A DNA stretch of 64,000 nucleotides from Kangiella aquimarina DSM 16071 (lineage in GTDB: Bacteria > Pseudomonadota > Gammaproteobacteria > Enterobacterales > Kangiellaceae): positions 986,862 through 1,050,861 of the forward strand of contig NZ_KB893650.1 of the NCBI RefSeq assembly GCF_000374105.1, given 5' to 3'. Each line of letters opens with the position of its first letter. Positions within the stretch are counted from its first letter, which is position 1. This document shows, one piece after another, positions 2,124 to 9,749 of the stretch. Under the pieces are notes generated by a model. It saw only the letters and a program-made list of their open reading frames with translations, had not been told where the DNA came from and ran no database searches. Made by a program: the position numbers and the translations under genes.

Positions 2124-2696
2124 ATGAAAACATGGTTTCAATTAAGTTGTGTAGCTCTTTTAGCTGCGTTGATAAGTACCGCGAAAGCTGGTGATGAAAT
2201 CCAGGATCTACCTGACGATTCAATCTATCACTTAAATAGCGAATGGATTACGCAGGATGATCAAACTATTAACATTAATTCATTGGCAGGCAAACGTCAG
2301 ATCATTAGCTTGATCTACACACATTGCATGCATACCTGCCCAACCATAGTGGCAACAATGCAGAACATAGAAAAGCAATTACCCGAAGAAGTGTTAGCAA
2401 ATACAGAGTTTGTATTAGTGTCACTAACACCTAACAGTGATACGCCAAAAGTCCTTAAAGAATTTGCTGAAAAAAGAAGGCTCGATCCAAAGAGATGGAC
2501 ATTGCTAACAGGCGATAAACAGGATGTTAGAAGTCTGGCAATGGCACTTAACGTCCGTTACAAAAAAAGTGAAGACAATGAAGTCGCCCACTCAAATGTA
2601 TTTACATTACTTGATGAGAAAGGACGAATCGTATTTCAGGAAGTTGGTGATATTAATAAAGTTGATGAAACAGTAGCTAAAATTGTGAATCGATAA
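2124..2696 (+). CDS. SCO1/SenC-family copper chaperone
   Basis: A 190-aa thioredoxin-fold protein that would deliver copper to periplasmic or membrane cuproenzymes. Seen: signal peptide MKTWFQLSCVALLAALISTAKA, the CxxxC copper site in THCMHTCPT, and the conserved downstream His in EVAHSNVF, which complete the Cys-Cys-His copper ligand set. ATG 2124 is chosen over an in-frame start at 2082 because the longer form overlaps nirV and hides the signal peptide; GAGGCAATT precedes 2124. As the last gene of the nirK cluster, it most likely metallates NirK or a linked cytochrome oxidase. A terminator follows. Confidence 0.88.
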   Translation: MKTWFQLSCVALLAALISTAKAGDEIQDLPDDSIYHLNSEWITQDDQTININSLAGKRQIISLIYTHCMHTCPTIVATMQNIEKQLPEEVLANTEFVLVSLTPNSDTPKVLKEFAEKRRLDPKRWTLLTGDKQDVRSLAMALNVRYKKSEDNEVAHSNVFTLLDEKGRIVFQEVGDINKVDETVAKIVNR

Positions 2697-2732
2697 TTGT
2701 AATAGTGTGAATTTGGAAAATTGAAGATAGAG

Positions 2733-2755
2733 GGCGGACGTTGTTCGCCTTTTTT
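2733..2755 (+). terminator. Rho-independent terminator of the nirK cluster
   Basis: GGCGGA (2733-2738) pairs with TTCGCC (2744-2749) around a 5-nt loop with one G-T pair, followed by TTTTTT. It lies 36 bp after the SCO stop codon. Confidence 0.8.
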
Positions 2756-2932
2756 ATTTGTGCAGTTATCGGATGGGTTTACCCAGGGGGCAGCCCCAAC
2801 GAAGTGTATTTCATAAAACGGATAGGAAATATATGGTGGGAATTGCTCAGACCAGCCAAAGCTGTCAAAAATTGCTCCAGACAATTTTTTGAACACGCTA
2901 CGCGGCTTCTAAATCCGTAATCTATAGCCAAT

Positions 2933-2964
2933 AAAAAACCCCAACTCTTGCGAGTTGAGGTTTT
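2933..2964 (-). terminator. Displaced original terminator of ssrA
   Basis: Read on the minus strand, CCTCAACTC (2960-2952), loop GCAA, GAGTTGGGG (2947-2939), then TTTTTT (2938-2933). The 9-bp stem contains one T-G pair. It sits three bases beyond the stranded copy of the ssrA 3' end, the normal position for the tmRNA terminator, but is now about 6.4 kb from the functional gene. Confidence 0.8.
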
Positions 2965-2967
2965 GTA

Positions 2968-2987
2968 TTGGTGGAGACGGCGGGAAT
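2968..2987. repeat. Left attachment repeat of the integrative element
   Basis: The 20-bp sequence TTGGTGGAGACGGCGGGAAT is identical to 9401-9420, the 3' end of ssrA (acceptor stem, encoded CCA and part of the T arm on the minus strand). At this copy the sequence continues into TCTCCACCAA, making a perfect 11-bp inverted repeat (2967-2977 with 2987-2997). Confidence 0.92.
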
Positions 2988-3271
2988 CTCCACCAATTTA
3001 AATCCTTAATATTTTAATCTCTAACTTATTGAAAAGTATAAATAAAATAATATCTTATTAAATTTAATTGTTTAATCTGTCACACCTATCTGTATAAGTC
3101 AAAAATTATCACTTTTTGTACAAACCTATATATATTATTGAGACACGAAAAAATGTCTCAGTGCTAGGTAGGTGACAGAGACCATCTGGTAACTAGATTC
3201 GTATGTTCATTGAAATGAGCAATGTATTAGTATTGTCTAAAGGAAATATAATAATAATGAGGTATTAATTT
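2988..3271. other. Non-coding left end of the element
   Basis: About 280 bp of AT-rich DNA with no gene. It contains TGTCACACCTAT at 3078-3089, repeated identically at 9317-9328 beside the integrase start (possible arm-type integrase sites), and a 7-bp inverted repeat TGAGACA/TGTCTCA at 3139-3160. Near the right side, ATCTGGTAACT (3184-3194) is repeated at 3957-3967, just after the next gene. Confidence 0.5.
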
Positions 3272-3940
3272 ATGAAGGTGACTAACGACGACTATATAGT
3301 TGACCAATATTACAATTTAAAAAATGAAATTAGCAAAGAAGCAAATATGCTGAATAGGTCAAATAATAACAATAACCAATTAAATGAAAATGAATATATT
3401 ACACCTGAATTCAAATATAAGTATTCTCTATATCATGATGGGTATATGAGAATGCTAAGTGATTATAATCTATCAACAGCTGTAACAATTCAATATTCGA
3501 GGCAGTTAAGCATGAATGAAAGTGATAAGTTGACCAGCGTTATTATCGATCTTATTTCAAAAAAAATGTTTGGTAATCACTATCATCGTGTTAATAGAAA
3601 TAATTTTAGAGGGATTTGTGTTAGAGAAAAAAATGGAGAAGGTAGTAAGTTCCCTGGTAATTATCACTACCATATCGGGTTGAAAGAAAAGCAGGAACAA
3701 TATACATGTGATCTAGAGGGAGCAATGACAAAAACAATTAATGAAGTGATTTATACGGATATCTACAAATTCGCACACATACCGATGAAAGGGTTGTGTA
3801 CGAGCCAAAATCTTGTAAAGGTGCAACCTATGACAAATGAATCTGGGCTTCACCGATATTTTCTAAAAACAACAGAAACCAATATTGAAAATTTCGATAA
3901 TGTTCATTTTATTAATAATGGCAAGTTGTTTTTCAAATAA
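3272..3940 (+). CDS. Hypothetical protein, possible HUH-type endonuclease / Rep-like
   Basis: A 222-aa protein that I do not recognise with certainty. Residues 22-42 are Asn-rich (NRSNNNNNQLNENE). Features recalling single-tyrosine HUH nucleases: a beta strand AVTIQYS (70-76) as motif 1, HYHIGL (132-137) as the metal-binding HUH motif, and RYFLK (195-199) in the position of the catalytic Y-x-x-K. The order and spacing fit small Rep or relaxase-like proteins of phages and satellites. It has no transmembrane segment. A GAGG ten bases upstream supports the ATG. The gene is flanked by the 11-bp direct repeat ATCTGGTAACT. AT-rich codon use marks it as element DNA. It could instead be an unrelated element protein. 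Confidence 0.45.
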   Translation: MKVTNDDYIVDQYYNLKNEISKEANMLNRSNNNNNQLNENEYITPEFKYKYSLYHDGYMRMLSDYNLSTAVTIQYSRQLSMNESDKLTSVIIDLISKKMFGNHYHRVNRNNFRGICVREKNGEGSKFPGNYHYHIGLKEKQEQYTCDLEGAMTKTINEVIYTDIYKFAHIPMKGLCTSQNLVKVQPMTNESGLHRYFLKTTETNIENFDNVHFINNGKLFFK

Positions 3941-4132
3941 CCGTGTTGAGCAAAAAATCTGGTAACTCATTGTTTTCAAATAATAAATATTTAAACAAGA
4001 TTATGATTAAAGAAATAAAAAGATATAATTGTTTGCTTTAAATATCTTTAATATCAATAGGTTACGTGTTTTTTTGTTCCTTTAGGGTTATGTTCAAGTT
4101 AAAATTTCTTTTCTATCTAAAAACTTACAAGA

Positions 4133-4172
4133 TTTAAGACAGGTAATATACAGGTGCTTTACCTGTCTTAAA
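4133..4172. repeat. 13-bp perfect inverted repeat at the recombinase promoter (possible res/crossover site)
   Basis: TTTAAGACAGGTA (4133-4145) and TACCTGTCTTAAA (4160-4172) are exact reverse complements around a 14-nt centre that itself contains another ACAGGT. A further TGTCTTA occurs at 4176-4182. The repeated half-sites immediately upstream of a serine recombinase suggest its binding or crossover sites, or an autoregulatory operator. Confidence 0.6.
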
Positions 4173-4186
4173 ATATGTCTTATAAT
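4158..4186 (+). promoter_or_regulatory. Predicted sigma70 promoter of the serine recombinase
   Basis: TTTACC (4158-4163), 17-bp spacer, TATAAT (4181-4186), 33 bp before the start codon. The -35 element lies inside the right arm of the inverted repeat, so a bound recombinase would block transcription. Confidence 0.6.
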
Positions 4187-4219
4187 ATCTTCTTGCAAAT
4201 TCTAGGAGATATAAGATAT

Positions 4220-4774
4220 ATGAAGATTGGTTATTCAAGAGTTAGCACGCAGGGGCAGGATCTAAAAACACAAATTAATAAATTAACTGATTATGGGTGT
4301 AATAAAGTCTTTAGTGAAAAAATATCTGGTAAATCAACTGAGCAAAGGAAGGAACTGCAAAAAGCACTAGAATTTGTCAGAGAAGGGGATTCCTTGGTTG
4401 TTACCCGATTAGATAGATTGGCTAGGTCAGTAGTGGATCTTGGTCAGATAGCTGAACTTTTGCAATCCAAAGGAGTGAACTTGGTGGTGACTGACCAGTC
4501 AATTGATACGACATCTGCTTCAGGTAAATTGATGTTTTATATGATCTCAGCCTTTGCAGAGTTTGAGAGAGACTTAATTAACGAGAGATGTGCCGAAGGC
4601 AGAGAAAAAGCACTTGCCAACGGGGTTAAATTTGGCCGTAAGAGCAAATTAACACCTAAACAAGTAGATACCCTTAAAAGTGAGTTCAGCTCCTGGGAAG
4701 GCTCAAAAACAGATTTGGCTGAGAAGTATGGTATTTCAAGAGCAAGCTTATATCGGTTAGTTCAGGAAGACTAG
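4220..4774 (+). CDS. Serine recombinase of the resolvase/invertase family
   Basis: A 184-aa site-specific recombinase. The catalytic domain begins MKIGYSRVST (nucleophile Ser9) and includes the LVVTRLDRLARSVVDL arginine cluster and the E helix FYMISAFAEFERDLINER. The C-terminal helix-turn-helix is GSKTDLAEKYGISRASLYRL. Length and layout match small resolvases/invertases of the Tn3/Pin type. ATG 4220 is preferred over an upstream in-frame ATG at 4175: it gives the family's normal N-terminus and is preceded by AGGAGA (4204-4209), while 4175 overlaps the promoter. It probably acts on the inverted repeat at 4133-4172 or resolves multimers of the circular element. Confidence 0.9.
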   Translation: MKIGYSRVSTQGQDLKTQINKLTDYGCNKVFSEKISGKSTEQRKELQKALEFVREGDSLVVTRLDRLARSVVDLGQIAELLQSKGVNLVVTDQSIDTTSASGKLMFYMISAFAEFERDLINERCAEGREKALANGVKFGRKSKLTPKQVDTLKSEFSSWEGSKTDLAEKYGISRASLYRLVQED

Positions 4775-4783
4775 GGTATCAAT

Positions 4784-4948
4784 ATGTACCGAGTTCAATA
4801 TAAAACTCATAACGCAAGTCAGGCATGGATGACAAAAGGAAATTATAGCAGTGAAAGCGAAGCACTTGGTAGTGCATCACGTATTGCAGGGAGGTACTTC
4901 ATGGTTCGAGTTATAAACACTATTGGTTTTGTAATATGGAGTGGATGA
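4784..4948 (+). CDS. Small hypothetical protein (54 aa) downstream of the recombinase
   Basis: ATG nine bases after the recombinase stop codon, so probably co-transcribed. The product begins MYRVQYKTHNASQAWMTKG and ends VINTIGFVIWSG, with a serine/alanine-rich middle (SSESEALGSASRIAG). It looks like a small one-domain beta-alpha-beta protein and has no family I recognise. It is too short for most gene lists. Sense-coding composition and tight spacing are the only support. Confidence 0.45.
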   Translation: MYRVQYKTHNASQAWMTKGNYSSESEALGSASRIAGRYFMVRVINTIGFVIWSG

Positions 4949-5201
4949 TAGGCTGTGAGTAAATATTTGTATTTAGATGCAAACGTTATTATTATCAGTT
5001 CATATATAAATTAATTCTGTATTAAAAGTTATCATTATAGTTAAATTCAGAATTTGACTGCTCACCCATAATTAAATGACTTGGATTAAAAGTGTTAACG
5101 TTTTAGACGATTAACAATCCAACTCATTAAGAAAACAAAATATTTTATAACTGACGGTATGTGATTTCGCAGAAATAGTTATATTAAGGGATATTGTTAA
5201 A

Positions 5202-6254
5202 ATGGCAAAACGCGCGCAAAATAAAAAATTAGCTGAAGCAAAGAAAAATAAAAAAGATGAGTTTTATACTCAACTATCAGATATTGAACGTGAACTTAAA
5301 CATTACAGAAAACACTTTAAAGGAAAAGTGGTTTATTGCAATTGTGATGACCCTAGAATAAGTAATTTTTTCCACTATTTTTCATACAACTTTGAAAAGC
5401 TAGGACTGAAAAAGCTAATAACAACCTGTTATAAAAGTCAAAACATGGATTTATTCAGCAGAAATGAGTCAGAAAAAGCGATTATGCTTGAATACAATGG
5501 TGATAAAAATAGGAATAACATACCAGATGTTGATGAGATTGGGGTTCATCAACTAAAAGGAGATGGAGACTTTAGAAGTGAGGAGTGTATAAAAATACTC
5601 AAGCAAGCAGATATTGTTGTTACAAACCCTCCTTTCTCATTATTTAGAGAATATGTATCTCAGCTTATCGAGCATGACAAAAAATTTATAATTGTTGGAC
5701 ATCAAAATGCAATTAAATACAAAGAAATTTTCCCACTTATAAGAGATAACAGGTTATGGCTAGGTTTTGGTTTTAAAGGTGGGGCAGCGCATTTCATTAA
5801 TAAGCATTATGAAGATTACGCTACTGCAACAGACCGAAAAGAAGGAATGATAAGAGTATCTGGAGTGCACTGGTTTACTAATTTAGATATTAATAAACGG
5901 CATGAGGATTTGATTCTTTATAAGAAATACACCCCCAAAGAGTACCCCAAATATGAAAACTTTGACGCTATTAACGTAGATAAAACTAAAGAAATTCCTT
6001 ATGATTATGCTGGCATGATGGGTGTTCCGATTACATTCATGGATAAGTATAACCCAGACCAATTTGAGATTATTGGAGTTGGAATTGCGAATGCTGGGTT
6101 GGAAATAGGAGTTTTGCCATATAAACCAGAGCATAAGAAGTATAGGAAGGAAGTCCAAAAGCGTGGAGCGGTTGACGGTGATTTATATATGATAGTAAAC
6201 GGAGAAGTAACCGTTCCTTATACCCGAATAATTATTAAGAACAAAAAAATATGA
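5202..6254 (+). CDS. EcoRI-family adenine-specific DNA methyltransferase
   Basis: A 350-aa predicted N6-adenine methyltransferase. Family marks: N-terminal DEFYTQ (19-24), VYCNCDDPRISNFFHYF (44-60) as the SAM-binding region typical of M.EcoRI-like enzymes, and the catalytic TNPPFSLF (141-148). The C-terminal half holds the conserved GVHWFTNLD and PYDYAGMMGVPITF segments seen in this family. It is a solitary-domain enzyme, so specificity must be internal. The stop codon overlaps the next gene's start in ATGA, so expression is coupled to a predicted nuclease instead of the EcoRI endonuclease. The lysine-rich N-terminus is typical of this AT-rich element. An AAGGG lies 11 bases upstream. Confidence 0.9.
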   Translation: MAKRAQNKKLAEAKKNKKDEFYTQLSDIERELKHYRKHFKGKVVYCNCDDPRISNFFHYFSYNFEKLGLKKLITTCYKSQNMDLFSRNESEKAIMLEYNGDKNRNNIPDVDEIGVHQLKGDGDFRSEECIKILKQADIVVTNPPFSLFREYVSQLIEHDKKFIIVGHQNAIKYKEIFPLIRDNRLWLGFGFKGGAAHFINKHYEDYATATDRKEGMIRVSGVHWFTNLDINKRHEDLILYKKYTPKEYPKYENFDAINVDKTKEIPYDYAGMMGVPITFMDKYNPDQFEIIGVGIANAGLEIGVLPYKPEHKKYRKEVQKRGAVDGDLYMIVNGEVTVPYTRIIIKNKKI

Positions 6255-7336
6255 AGATCGAGCTCAAAGAAATTACTGTCCGTGAACTAACTGAAGGATT
6301 CGAGGATAACGAAGAAGCTGGTGTTGTTGGTTACGGTGGAAAACTAGATATCCGGCCTCCATACCAACGAGAGTTCATCTATAAAGATAAACAACGCGAT
6401 GCGGTAATTCATACATTAACAAGAGACTTTCCTTTAAATGTTATGTATTGGGCAGTTCGAGAGGATGGTGGGTATGAAGTTATTGATGGTCAGCAGAGAA
6501 CATTATCAATATGCCAATATGTTAATGGTGATTTTGCATATATGTTCAAATATTTTCACAATCTTAAGGATGATGAAAAAGAGCAAATTCTTAATTATAA
6601 GTTAATGGTTTATATATGTAGTGGCACTGATAGTGAAAAGCTGGACTGGTTTAAAACAATTAACATTGCAGGAGAAAAACTCACAGAACAAGAACTAAGG
6701 AACGCTGTATACTCTGGAACTTGGGTAACAGATGCAAAAAGATACTTCAGTAAAAATGGGTGTCCAGCTTTTCAAATTGGAAGTGACTACTTGGTAGGGA
6801 CCCCAATTAGACAGGACTATCTAGAAACAGCTATAAAATGGATATCTAAAGGTAATATTGAGGTGTATATGTCTAAACACCAGCATGACCCGAATGCTTT
6901 GGCGTTATGGCAATACTTTCAAAATGTAATAACTTGGGTTCAGGGAACCTTTACTAAAAAGCGAACAAAGTTCATGAAGGGTGTAGATTGGGGGGAGCTA
7001 TACAATAAATTCAAAGATGAAGTCTACGATACAAAGAAATTAGAAAATGAAGTTGCAATGCTTATCGCCGATGATGATGTTGAGAAGAAGAAAGGTATAT
7101 ATCCATATGTATTAACGAGAGATGAAAAGCACTTGGGCATAAGAGCTTTTTCGGACTCAATGAAACAAAAAGTATATGAAAAGCAGAAAGGCATCTGTAC
7201 CAGCTGTAAAGAACATTTCGAGATATCAGAAATGGAAGGCGATCATATAACACCTTGGCATGAAGGTGGGAAAACAATTGAAAGTAATTGCCAAATGCTT
7301 TGTAAAGATTGTAACAGGAGAAAATCGGGTAAGTAA
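6251..7336 (+). CDS. DUF262-HNH endonuclease coupled to the methyltransferase
   Basis: A 361-aa two-domain protein. The N-terminal DUF262 (ParB/Srx-like, GmrS-type) domain shows PPYQREFIY (36-44) and IDGQQR (78-83), the residues used for nucleotide binding or hydrolysis in this superfamily. The C-terminal HNH domain has zinc Cys pairs C316/C319 and C351/C354, the DH pair at 331-332, Asn346 and Asn355. Related DUF262-HNH proteins (GmrSD, BrxU, SspE types) are nucleotide-dependent restriction enzymes. It overlaps the methyltransferase by 4 bp, so this is most simply its restriction partner. Whether it cuts unmodified or modified DNA cannot be told from sequence. The gene is intact with no frameshift. 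Confidence 0.88.
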   Translation: MKIELKEITVRELTEGFEDNEEAGVVGYGGKLDIRPPYQREFIYKDKQRDAVIHTLTRDFPLNVMYWAVREDGGYEVIDGQQRTLSICQYVNGDFAYMFKYFHNLKDDEKEQILNYKLMVYICSGTDSEKLDWFKTINIAGEKLTEQELRNAVYSGTWVTDAKRYFSKNGCPAFQIGSDYLVGTPIRQDYLETAIKWISKGNIEVYMSKHQHDPNALALWQYFQNVITWVQGTFTKKRTKFMKGVDWGELYNKFKDEVYDTKKLENEVAMLIADDDVEKKKGIYPYVLTRDEKHLGIRAFSDSMKQKVYEKQKGICTSCKEHFEISEMEGDHITPWHEGGKTIESNCQMLCKDCNRRKSGK

Positions 7337-7528
7337 TAAATCATGAGTTTCTTTTGTATTACATATAAAATTTAATGTAGTAATGATTTTGTAGTCGCCA
7401 GAAAACTAAGGACGATTTATTCTTTGTGGTTTAATTATATCAGAACCGCCATTCCTGTAATTGGCTATGTTATAAGCAAATTACTTGAGAATAAACTATT
7501 TAAACCGTACTTCAGGTTGCTAGCTAAT

Positions 7529-9313
7529 TTACTTTGACTTTCTTACAACAACATTTGCAGTCATTGATTTAATTATTTTTAAATCTAGTCCAAAATCAAT
7601 CGCATCTAAAATTGTATTTAGCTGTTCTGGATTTATATCATTTCCATACCTATTCTCGGACTCGGTTTCTCCTCTTTGGTGTCCAACATAAGTTGTTCTA
7701 AATAGAGTTTGAACTTTTGGGTCACTCTTTAATTTATCAATAACAGAGTGTCTAAAACTATAAAGCGATTTTTTATCAGTCTTAATACATAGCTTTACTG
7801 CTAGTGAGTTATTGAACCAGTCAGCGGGGTTTCTTGAATACCCATGACCGTTGCTTTTATTTAGGTAAAAGAATAGTCTGCTGGAGTCTGAGACTTCTGG
7901 CACTTTCTTAACATTTTCTACAAAGTCAATAAATCCAACTTCTAATAAATGAGGATGAATAGGTATTACCCTCTTCGCTGAGTTATTTTTAAGAGATTTT
8001 GTAGCACTTTCTGCAAATGAAATTGTTTTTATATCTGTGCTTAAATCTATGTCATCTATAGTTAGTTGATAAATTTCCTCTGGCCTTGCTCCTGTGTACA
8101 GAAGTAATAAATATCCCCATAATTTTGCAAACTTGTATTTTTGCTTGTTGAACATACTTACAGCTAAATCTGAATTGAATAATTTGTTGATATCTTGATC
8201 AGTAAATGGAGTCTTTTCTTCTAGCGTGTTTATTTTCTTAGTTCTGTATAGCTTTCTTACGGGATTCCCGCTTATTACTTGTTTGTCTATGTAATATTGA
8301 AAAAATGAAGAAATTCGTTCTGCATGCTTTTTCTTTGTTGTCAGAGAAATAACTTCATGGCTCTTATCATTTTTTTGCTTTTTTATTATTTGCTCTAAGG
8401 TTAAGTTTTTGAATTCTTTATTTTTATTCCTATTTTTTGGTATTAGATCTAAATATTTTACAAACTTTCTTATATCTGGATTGTATGAAATTTCTTCAAT
8501 GTATTTGTTTCCGATTATTTCTATAAAGAGATTAATACTTTCTTCATATTGCTTTATCGTTCTTTCTTTTAGATGCGATGAGTTGGTTATATAGTCATTT
8601 AGCGCATCTGATAATTTAAGTCCATTTGAATTGGAATTATTTTGTCTATATGTGGGTTTGATGTTTAATGAATCTGCTTTGTCCTTTTCTATAAACAAAC
8701 TAAAAGGTGAAAGTGATAAACTTGAAGTTGGTGAAAAACAATCATTTTCTGCATCTAGTAGTTTAAAATGAGATATCTTTAAACTATCATTTCGACTTTC
8801 CAGATAAGCGTGAATATCTTCTTTCGCTATTTGTATGTAGCCTCCCTGTAAATCTACTTTGCCACTCCTGTCTTCATCAAGAGTGACTCTTTCAACAACT
8901 CCTCCTGTAGGTTTCTTTTCATAAGTAACAGAATAGAGCATGGCTTCAATTGGAGGTATTGAGCAATAAAATTCACCATTGTCGTCGTATATTTTTTGGA
9001 GTGCGTGTCTCAGTGTTTTGTAATCTTGCAACGATATAAGTTTGTCTATTGAGATTAGCTCAATAGCTTTTTTCTCTGATTTAATTATGAGGGTGCTGTT
9101 TTGTTTGTTCAAAAATTCATCTATATCTGATAATCCATTGATTCTTTGAAAGCTGCTCCACAGCTTAAATGCTTGTACCTTTGCTTCTTGATAACTCTTG
9201 GTTCCTAATGAAAACCTTATTTCCTTCTGTTTCCATTTATATCTTGTTGGAACAGCTATTCTAAAATAATAAACCCCAGAAGAGGTTCTGTATGTATGTG
9301 GTATTTTCCTCAT
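7529..9313 (-). CDS. Tyrosine recombinase/integrase of the ssrA element
   Basis: A 594-aa integrase. The N-terminus (PHTYRTSSGVYYFRIAVPTRYK) resembles the arm-binding start of long phage-type integrases; a SAM-like core-binding domain lies around 230-350. Catalytic residues: Arg410 in TGARPEE, a Lys region in SAKRVIPIHP, YSFRH with Arg521 (Tyr replaces the first His of HxxR, as in many island integrases), His545 in YVGHQRG, and nucleophile Tyr556 in NRYGND. The gene reads inward from the ssrA end and should catalyse insertion and excision between the 20-bp repeats. It converges with the DUF262-HNH gene over a 192-bp gap in which I see no gene. No excisionase was found. Confidence 0.93.
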   Translation of the reverse strand: MRKIPHTYRTSSGVYYFRIAVPTRYKWKQKEIRFSLGTKSYQEAKVQAFKLWSSFQRINGLSDIDEFLNKQNSTLIIKSEKKAIELISIDKLISLQDYKTLRHALQKIYDDNGEFYCSIPPIEAMLYSVTYEKKPTGGVVERVTLDEDRSGKVDLQGGYIQIAKEDIHAYLESRNDSLKISHFKLLDAENDCFSPTSSLSLSPFSLFIEKDKADSLNIKPTYRQNNSNSNGLKLSDALNDYITNSSHLKERTIKQYEESINLFIEIIGNKYIEEISYNPDIRKFVKYLDLIPKNRNKNKEFKNLTLEQIIKKQKNDKSHEVISLTTKKKHAERISSFFQYYIDKQVISGNPVRKLYRTKKINTLEEKTPFTDQDINKLFNSDLAVSMFNKQKYKFAKLWGYLLLLYTGARPEEIYQLTIDDIDLSTDIKTISFAESATKSLKNNSAKRVIPIHPHLLEVGFIDFVENVKKVPEVSDSSRLFFYLNKSNGHGYSRNPADWFNNSLAVKLCIKTDKKSLYSFRHSVIDKLKSDPKVQTLFRTTYVGHQRGETESENRYGNDINPEQLNTILDAIDFGLDLKIIKSMTANVVVRKSK

Positions 9314-9350
9314 TTATGTCACACCTATGTGGCAGACTATAATATTAAGG

Positions 9351-9391
9351 AAAAAATAAAAACCGATAAATTTAATAAAAAACAATCGGTT
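9351..9391 (-). terminator. Element-supplied replacement terminator for ssrA
   Basis: On the minus strand AACCGAT (9391-9385) pairs with ATCGGTT (9367-9361) across a 17-nt loop, followed by TTTATTTTTT. It lies directly after the ssrA 3' end, inside element DNA, and replaces the terminator stranded at 2933-2964. Confidence 0.65.
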
Positions 9392-9400
9392 ATCAAAAAT

Positions 9401-9420
9401 TTGGTGGAGACGGCGGGAAT
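9401..9420. repeat. Right attachment repeat, overlapping the 3' end of ssrA
   Basis: Identical over 20 bp to 2968-2987. It contains the encoded CCA, the acceptor-stem 3' strand and the start of the T arm of tmRNA (minus strand). Identity stops at both ends: TGAACC follows here, whereas CTCCACC follows at the left copy. Confidence 0.92.
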
Positions 9421-9749
9421 TGAACCCGCGTCCGCGAATCCTCTGCTCGAGGGTCTACATGCTTAGGTCCATCTTTAATTTAATCTTTGACGTGCCGATG
9501 GGCAGGCATTCAAAGACGGTCTCGAGGAAAGTTTAACAGTTGGCTGCCGAGCACAGTTACCTGCGAGTCCCTGTATTGACTGTCTAGCTCCTACCAAGGA
9601 CGCTCAGAGTAGACAGTTAGCCTTAAGCGGCTAAAGCGTAGTTGTCTTCGTTTGCAACTATTAAGTTTCAGCTTTGATTTTACGAGATTCGCTGACATCT
9701 CGGCATGCACCTGGAGGTTCGTAATCCACGTCGAATCCAAATCGTCCCC
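9402..9749 (-). ncRNA. ssrA: Transfer-messenger RNA (tmRNA)
   Basis: One-piece tmRNA of about 348 nt that rescues stalled ribosomes together with SmpB. The 5' end GGGGACG (9749-9743) pairs with CGTCTCC near the 3' end (one G-U), followed by discriminator A and encoded CCA (9404-9402). The 5' tRNA-like part contains the conserved TTTGGATTCGACG. The tag reading frame at 9655-9623 reads GCAAACGAAGACAACTACGC and onward to TAA, giving the tag ANEDNYALAA. The T arm GGGTTCAATTCCC is intact. The final 20 nt are the integration site of the element. smpB lies 4.5 kb away on the same strand. Confidence 0.97.

Follow-up and report, generated by a model that had tools for sequence, protein, structure and literature searches.

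An EcoRI-family methyltransferase as the probable specificity subunit of a two-gene restriction module with a DUF262-HNH nuclease

When the gene for a DUF262-HNH nuclease overlaps that for an EcoRI-family adenine methyltransferase, which of the two proteins chooses the DNA target? This question is raised by a gene pair in a stretch of 64,000 nucleotides of Kangiella aquimarina DSM 16071 (contig NZ_KB893650.1, positions 986,862 to 1,050,861 of the forward strand), which we call the window. An earlier account made from the letters of the window (the sequence-only reading) had described an EcoRI-family methyltransferase gene overlapping a DUF262-HNH gene by ATGA. Both open reading frames (ORFs), M of 350 amino acids (aa) and R of 361 aa, are present as described and intact, and their domains were matched (Table 1); the Pfam EcoRI_methylase family covers M aa 10 to 348 (E = 3.3e-140). 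The full-length models of PADLOC-DB identify M as MTase_II (E = 8e-125) and R as REase_II, a "Type II restriction enzyme" (E = 2.5e-134). In the Pfam domain search, R had no DUF1524 match at an E value of 0.1 and no helicase match. We find that M is probably the specificity subunit for both methylation and cleavage in a two-gene restriction-modification (R-M) module, as Mod is in Type III systems. As read from the sequences, the case consists of conserved, intact genes in near-obligate linkage, a pair of variable blocks that M has and R lacks, R identity that is decoupled from these blocks, and purifying selection on R across the swaps.

Linkage was counted in 121 R loci (numbered with L below), namely, the best 80 of at least 579 confirmed relatives on genome contigs and 41 viral loci. 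M was nearby in all 116 loci that could be evaluated; four others were cut at a contig end (L019, L021, L054, and L083), and one was a fragment (L042). M lay directly upstream of R, on the same strand and within 600 bp, in 108 of the 121, and a 4-bp overlap was the most frequent spacing (38 of the 108 adjacent pairs). One or two ORFs intervened between an upstream M and R, again on the same strand, in L045, L057, L059, L061, L076, and L084 (M of L045 is broken by a frameshift), and M was downstream of R in L071. In L088, M lies farther upstream, at approximately 7.8 kb and on what appears to be the same contig, past a cytosine methyltransferase whose ORF starts like R. This ORF (2421 to 3521, + strand) has an R-like N terminus running into the cytosine methyltransferase, a layout that would result from insertion of an R-M cassette in a copy of R. 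The neighborhood count proposed with the sequence-only reading thus finds the pairing to be widespread and not confined to this locus. The same count contradicts the description of the methyltransferase as solitary, since M and R form a conserved unit, and it ruled out the pairing as an accident of the island on which the window's copy lies. Counted from the M side, in the best 80 of the 98 M loci on viral contigs, the partner was R in 41 and R.EcoRI in 2; the other 37 had neither, and 5 of these had fewer than 250 bases left downstream. M therefore occurs without R; R without M was not seen among the close relatives sampled (best 80 of at least 579).

For protein comparisons, further R loci were added from the best 80 of 179 viral loci, which overlap the first viral set, and from six plasmid or Escherichia coli records, of which five passed. 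After removal of exact duplicate M-R pairs and of loci in which M or R had no near-full ORF on the + strand, there were 136 unique pairs; L134, with M split by a frameshift, and L221, with the pair on the other strand, were among those dropped. The NPPF motif is kept in all 136 M proteins and DGQQR in 135 of the 136 R proteins, and these conserved motifs, together with the ratios of nonsynonymous to synonymous substitution rates (dN/dS) given below, ruled out a degenerate R. Column identity per 10-residue bin was calculated for 102 pairs, identical ones still being included, as they were in the first swap comparison. In M, it was 22 to 31% in the region of the first hypervariable block, TRD1 (aa 191 to 220), and 2 to 16% in that of the second, TRD2 (aa 291 to 330); in the framework outside TRD1, bins from aa 121 to 290 had 51 to 98%, those from aa 11 to 120 had 37 to 77%, and the N terminus had 30%. 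The weakest bin of R had 31% (aa 261 to 270), with a mean over R of 62%. A hypervariable recognition block in R was ruled out by these values and by the column-tracking test described below.

As a control, we used M proteins that are partnered by R.EcoRI, in eight loci (L138 and L223 to L229) that comprise 6 of 19 plasmid records with R.EcoRI matches and both viral loci; L230 was dropped for having no EcoRI-family M, and R of L224 is partial. In 28 comparisons, TRD1 was 62 to 95% identical, TRD2 was 60 to 100% identical, and the framework was 54 to 83% identical, and R.EcoRI identity dropped to 61% while both M blocks stayed at 60 to 100%. Because the blocks are fixed beside R.EcoRI, where the site presumably must stay fixed, TRD1 and TRD2 are evidently target-recognition segments of M, as judged from their variability and this control.

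Clustering gave 32 TRD1 families and 62 TRD2 families. The three largest TRD1 families, which have 32, 27, and 16 members, occur with 15, 21, and 14 TRD2 families, respectively. The two blocks thus combine almost independently, and if each reads one half-site, most sites would not be palindromes. EcoRI-like segments recur beside the DUF262-HNH partner, both of them in L076 (TRD1 78%, TRD2 94%), TRD2 alone in L050, L094, and L110 (67 to 78%), and TRD1 alone in L012, L014, L035, and L091 (62 to 68%). No silent recognition cassettes were found beside M in the 136 loci; the only additions were second, tandem EcoRI-family methyltransferases upstream of a single R in two of them (L033, 1884 to 3869; L169, 1306 to 3508), which could serve two strands or two specificities.

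Next, we compared R with the parts of M. Across the 136 unique pairs (9,180 comparisons; Mantel test, 500 permutations), R identity tracked the M framework (rho = 0.59, P = 0.002) and showed almost no correlation with TRD1 (rho = 0.06, P = 0.06) or TRD2 (rho = 0.02, P = 0.30). When R was 60 to 95% identical, at least one block was less than 40% identical in 4,589 of 4,639 comparisons, which are not independent of one another, versus 0 of 28 in the control. At 85 to 99.99% R identity, the same was true of 35 of 41 comparisons, and among 42 sequences with a nearest R neighbor at 85% or more, 10 shared both block families with it. Four R pairs, from five loci, are 98 to 99% identical (4 to 6 substitutions, dN/dS of 0.02 to 0.04) and yet accompany M proteins with both blocks replaced. 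The clearest swaps are in L057, L059, L060, and L061, from Paludibacteraceae or Bacteroidales metagenome-assembled genomes (MAGs), and in L052/L053. R differs by 4 aa between L057 and L061, with TRD1 29% and TRD2 15% identical, and by 5 aa between L052 and L053, none at the L057/L061 positions, with TRD1 11% and TRD2 14 to 15% identical. The DNA of L057 and L061 is mostly 93 to 100% identical from an intervening Fic-like gene through R, against approximately 40 to 53% and 0 to 45% per 75-column bin in the two M blocks. Among 17 comparisons with R at least 90% identical and at least one block swapped, dN/dS of R was 0.01 to 0.09 in 15 (dS exceeding 1 in 4 of these) and saturated in 2. R is therefore under purifying selection across the swaps and is maintained while M changes its blocks. 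Additionally, no R column followed the blocks closely: the maximum adjusted mutual information (AMI) with the TRD1 family was 0.12 (108 sequences), whereas M framework column 168, near TRD1, reached 0.50. With the TRD2 family, the maximum for R was 0.18 (81 sequences).

Several observations weigh against M as the sole source of specificity. The nearest R neighbor shares the TRD1 family in 26.5% of cases (shuffled, 11.3%) and the TRD2 family in 16.2% (shuffled, 1.7%), and the AMI among TRD1, TRD2, and R clusters, 0.12 to 0.16, exceeded that of all 200 shuffles; we attribute this residual association to recent common ancestry. At R position 169, L057, L060, and L061 all differ from one another, although L052 and L053 do not, and there may be one or two specificity residues of R in that group. 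The TRD2 half of the column test has little power, since even the best framework column reached only 0.23. The control loci are few and presumably all have one site, and the blocks have no PDB structure of the M family by sequence to be placed on: the M profile had no match to PDB sequences at an E value of 1 or less, and Foldseek of the M model had no PDB match at 0.001 or less. Finally, all 17 closest swapped comparisons came from metagenome assemblies. Therefore, complete plasmids of cultured strains were compared, using 12 plasmid records picked among 40 matches listed together with L133, L135, L136, and L137. All 12 carry M beside R (M of L337 is truncated). Paucilactobacillus oligofermentans and Leuconostoc mesenteroides (L333/L334) have R 87%, framework 78%, TRD1 33%, and TRD2 16% identical; Rhodococcus ruber and Gordonia amicalis (L335/L336) have R 83%, TRD1 72%, and TRD2 13% identical; Apilactobacillus kunkeei and Pediococcus pentosaceus (L331/L340) have R 76%, framework 94%, TRD1 95%, and TRD2 20% identical; and G. 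amicalis and Pseudarthrobacter (L336/L338) have R 73%, TRD1 9%, and TRD2 71% identical. Two A. kunkeei plasmids (L331 and L332) are identical throughout. The isolates thus back the swap pattern up to 87% R identity but no higher.

Could R instead find the target itself? An orthodox Type II enzyme, with R alone recognizing the site of M and cutting it when unmethylated, would suit two adjacent genes with the PADLOC labels REase_II and MTase_II and would account for the changes at R position 169 that accompany the swaps in one group; a homologous pair in Sulfitobacter, described below, has also been suggested as an R-M system (PMC9025767). We nevertheless consider this unlikely, because R shows no co-variation with TRD1 or TRD2, is found 98 to 99% identical and under purifying selection beside M proteins of different blocks, and behaves in the opposite way to R.EcoRI in the control. 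The decoupling would also be explained by a sequence-agnostic R that reads the methyl mark itself, at any site, so that the mark licenses or directs cuts of unmarked DNA. R does share the DUF262-plus-HNH layout of SspE/BrxU-type proteins, with a weak PADLOC match to SspE (E = 2.6e-4) and a Foldseek match to BrxU. However, a general reader of N6-methyladenine would be misled by the other adenine methylation that hosts often carry, and such a mechanism seems quite improbable to us. The common 4-bp overlap suggests cotranslation of M and R and does not separate a nuclease guided by M from one that reads the mark.

Variability by itself is no proof of recognition, and the blocks might be surface loops diversified against phage inhibitors or otherwise. 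Their conservation above the framework beside R.EcoRI, and the exchange of discrete block families across distant R clusters in the manner of swapped cassettes, make this very improbable. The sequence-only reading had offered two possibilities, a nuclease that spares host-methylated sites and one that is guided by methylation; we favor a third, target choice by the M protein, which is compatible with the first.

How M might direct R was approached through models, which had mean predicted local distance difference test (pLDDT) scores of 88.5 for M and 91 for R with AlphaFold2. For the R model, Foldseek placed BrxU first (E = 2.6e-4), followed by the nucleotide-binding domains of Noc and ParB and by the HNH nuclease 4h9d. 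For GmrSD, the DGQQR domain has been proposed to hydrolyze nucleoside triphosphates and the HNH part to cleave (PMC4619093). Together, these fold matches and the GmrSD proposal suggest a nucleotide-switched nuclease recruited by M, and fold and motif would make R nucleotide dependent. M would read its target through two separately exchangeable segments and methylate an adenine, and R, having no target recognition of its own, would act through M, presumably as a physical complex on unmethylated sites. The ParB/GmrSD-like DUF262 domain would bind or hydrolyze nucleotide and the HNH domain would cut. Sites would be mostly asymmetric and methylated on one strand, two unmethylated sites may be needed for cutting, as in Type III, and phage or plasmid DNA would be restricted. 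We propose tentatively, as possible rather than probable, that this is a separate R-M machine, in which M with two exchangeable half-site readers guides a DUF262-HNH nuclease. This nuclease, ParB-like and switched by nucleotide, would cut only once two asymmetric unmethylated sites had been engaged. The machine would be a counterpart of Type III that lacks a helicase, has combinatorial specificities, and is widespread in bacteria and perhaps in some archaea. What speaks against this picture is that the TM-scores of the R matches are low, with BrxU the sole match at an E value below 0.001, that the sole methylation motif linked to any family member is one tentatively assigned GGCATC, and that there was no natural M-R fusion among the loci used for the 136 pairs. 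An apparent long fusion in L248 (406 to 2535, - strand) proved to be an EcoRI-family adenine methyltransferase fused to a cytosine-5 methyltransferase, and no R gene was present within the fetched stretch.

Among known systems, the module works most like Type III. As in the Mod and Res proteins of EcoP1I and EcoP15I, exchangeable recognition lies in the methyltransferase, the nuclease partner is conserved, and asymmetric sites are expected. In Type III, res is conserved and mod is variable in its central part, Res needs Mod, which holds the recognition domain (PMC3311624), and one-strand methylation is made safe by the need for two inverted sites (PMC3874151). Res, however, is a superfamily 2 (SF2) helicase with PD-D/ExK, whereas R is a DUF262-HNH protein that lacks the Res helicase, and M, unlike Mod, belongs to the EcoRI family and varies in two separate blocks; the module is therefore not Type III. 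GmrSD, BrxU, and SspE share with R a DUF262 domain with DGQQR and a His-Me finger nuclease, and BrxU is the best fold match, but they act on modified or phosphorothioate-related DNA (PMC12707154), whereas R is short (361 aa), has the HNH domain PF01844, and is linked to a methyltransferase of its own. This methyltransferase and the missing DUF1524 exclude Type IV of the GmrSD kind. EcoRI has a methyltransferase of the same family, but R.EcoRI comes from another family of proteins, and the blocks of the M paired with it stay fixed. Gene adjacency is as in orthodox Type II (108 of 121), but R does not co-vary with the M segments as it does in the EcoRI control, and the module is thus not orthodox Type II. 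In PcaI, too, a Type IV-style nuclease is coupled to a methyltransferase, but that nuclease is McrBC-like, of another family, and its changed target is credited to the nuclease's own unrelated DNA-binding domain (PMC8989522). Protection by methylation has been described for other HNH nucleases (PMC11473606, PMC12409345).

The same two genes, with the same 4-bp overlap, lie on plasmid pDSM14862_g of Sulfitobacter indolifex DSM 14862 (L133), where R is 62% identical to that of the window. In 2022, this pair was suggested to be a possible novel R-M system; GAATTC is unmethylated in the strain, and its strain-only N6-methyladenine (6mA) motif, GGCATC, was only tentatively linked to M (PMC9025767). 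We found no M-guided mechanism in that account. The literature searched yielded neither an account of blocks being swapped while R stays constant nor one of a DUF262-HNH nuclease guided by M; the literature matches listed contained no mention of GGCATC and nothing relevant on NsnA. Known already are the gene pair as annotation and its status as a suspected R-M system. The full-length PADLOC models mean that the family is already catalogued as Type II, as far as seen by annotation only. These Type II models presumably derive from REBASE, which is named in the reference lists of the PADLOC papers. The possibility, raised with the sequence-only reading, that the pair is an assigned Type II system is thus true of the PADLOC label but fails on the co-variation of orthodox Type II.

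If M addresses R, a family filed as ordinary Type II would be a guided system with its target set by two short segments of M, and the target could be changed without altering the nuclease, unlike in ordinary two-gene restriction systems. A Type IV-style nuclease would have been turned to self/nonself discrimination via a methyltransferase, giving a helicase-free answer to the one-strand methylation problem of Type III enzymes. The 32 TRD1 and 62 TRD2 families would then be a readable specificity catalogue once methylomes are measured, and because several members have EcoRI-like segments, the well-studied EcoRI methyltransferase is a ready entry point.

The genome-contig records with R bear titles from Bacteroidales, Sulfurovum, Fibrobacter, Saccharibacteria, Actinomycetota, Acidobacteriales, and Rickettsiales, and two are archaeal MAGs, their binning taken as deposited; the module occurs across many bacterial phyla and perhaps in some archaea. 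Three of 15 genomes examined hold two separate M-R pairs, G354 (L057 and L247), G362 (L114 and L246), and G365 (L067 and L249), whose two R copies are 38%, 74%, and 40% identical, respectively. The nearly identical gene between M and R in L057, L059, and L061 (4021 to 4950, + strand), all Paludibacteraceae MAGs, is one that we take to be Fic-like, and Gordonia plasmid pGKT1 (L341) likewise has a Fic family gene, immediately downstream of its M-R pair. Presumably antirepressor-like genes, similar to each other, lie between M and R in two Rickettsiales MAGs (L076, 4134 to 4997, and L084, 783 to 1601, both + strand). In a Rhodococcus pyridinivorans plasmid (L229), another DUF262 gene (5206 to 5825, + strand) is approximately 0.8 kb downstream of the R.EcoRI/M.EcoRI pair.

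Table 1. Features of the M-R gene pair and of the island that carries it, in window coordinates
Feature	Position	Strand	Basis
M, EcoRI-family adenine methyltransferase, proposed specificity and modification subunit	5202..6254	+	Pfam EcoRI_methylase
R, DUF262-HNH protein, proposed nuclease partner guided by M	6251..7336	+	Pfam, PADLOC
ATGA overlap, M stop / R start	6251..6254	+	Commonest spacing in adjacent pairs
NPPF motif of M, aa 142-145	5625..5636	+	Invariant in alignment
TRD1, first hypervariable block of M, aa 188-223	5763..5870	+	Column variability
TRD2, second hypervariable block of M, aa 291-338	6072..6215	+	Column variability
DUF262 / GmrSD_N domain of R, aa 34-154	6350..6712	+	Pfam PF03235, E 3e-18
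DGQQR motif of R, aa 79-83	6485..6499	+	Near-invariant in pairs
HNH nuclease domain of R, aa 316-359	7196..7327	+	Pfam PF01844, E 1e-13; matches 4h9d
6,433-bp integrative island in tmRNA gene 3' end	2968..9400	.	Repeats and empty sites
ORF of 222 aa, no Pfam, NCBIfam or PHROG match at E 0.1	3272..3940	+	
Serine resolvase/invertase-family recombinase	4175..4774	+	Pfam Resolvase, E 1.8e-43
Tyrosine-type integrase, 594 aa	7529..9313	-	DUF6538, E 1.2e-9; Phage_integrase, E 3e-4, below the model's cut-off
tmRNA gene, integration target	9402..9749	-	ARAGORN

The host genome holds a single copy each of M and R. M was absent from all 60 relatives searched, of which 16 had partial R matches only (best E = 6e-14, 33% identity over aa 32 to 164), and an EcoRI_methylase match exceeded the cutoff in 2 of 299 genomes of the window's phylum, its own included. 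The claim that the pair sits on a mobile element is borne out by the resolvase, the integrase, the tmRNA target, and 20-bp direct repeats that bound the island (2968 to 2987 and 9401 to 9420). Two of the 19 other genomes of the genus, G011 and G003, have an empty site, where sequence matching that up to 2967 joins sequence matching that from 9401 directly; the left flank was present in 8 of the 20 genomes, including the window's own. A compact two-gene module of restriction type on a mobile element is well supported. A HYH stretch in the 222-aa ORF is reminiscent of HUH replication or mobilization proteins. In a sibling genome (G019, C1:2027687-2032202), approximately 4.5 kb occupies the same tmRNA-side position, so the site seems to take different cargo.

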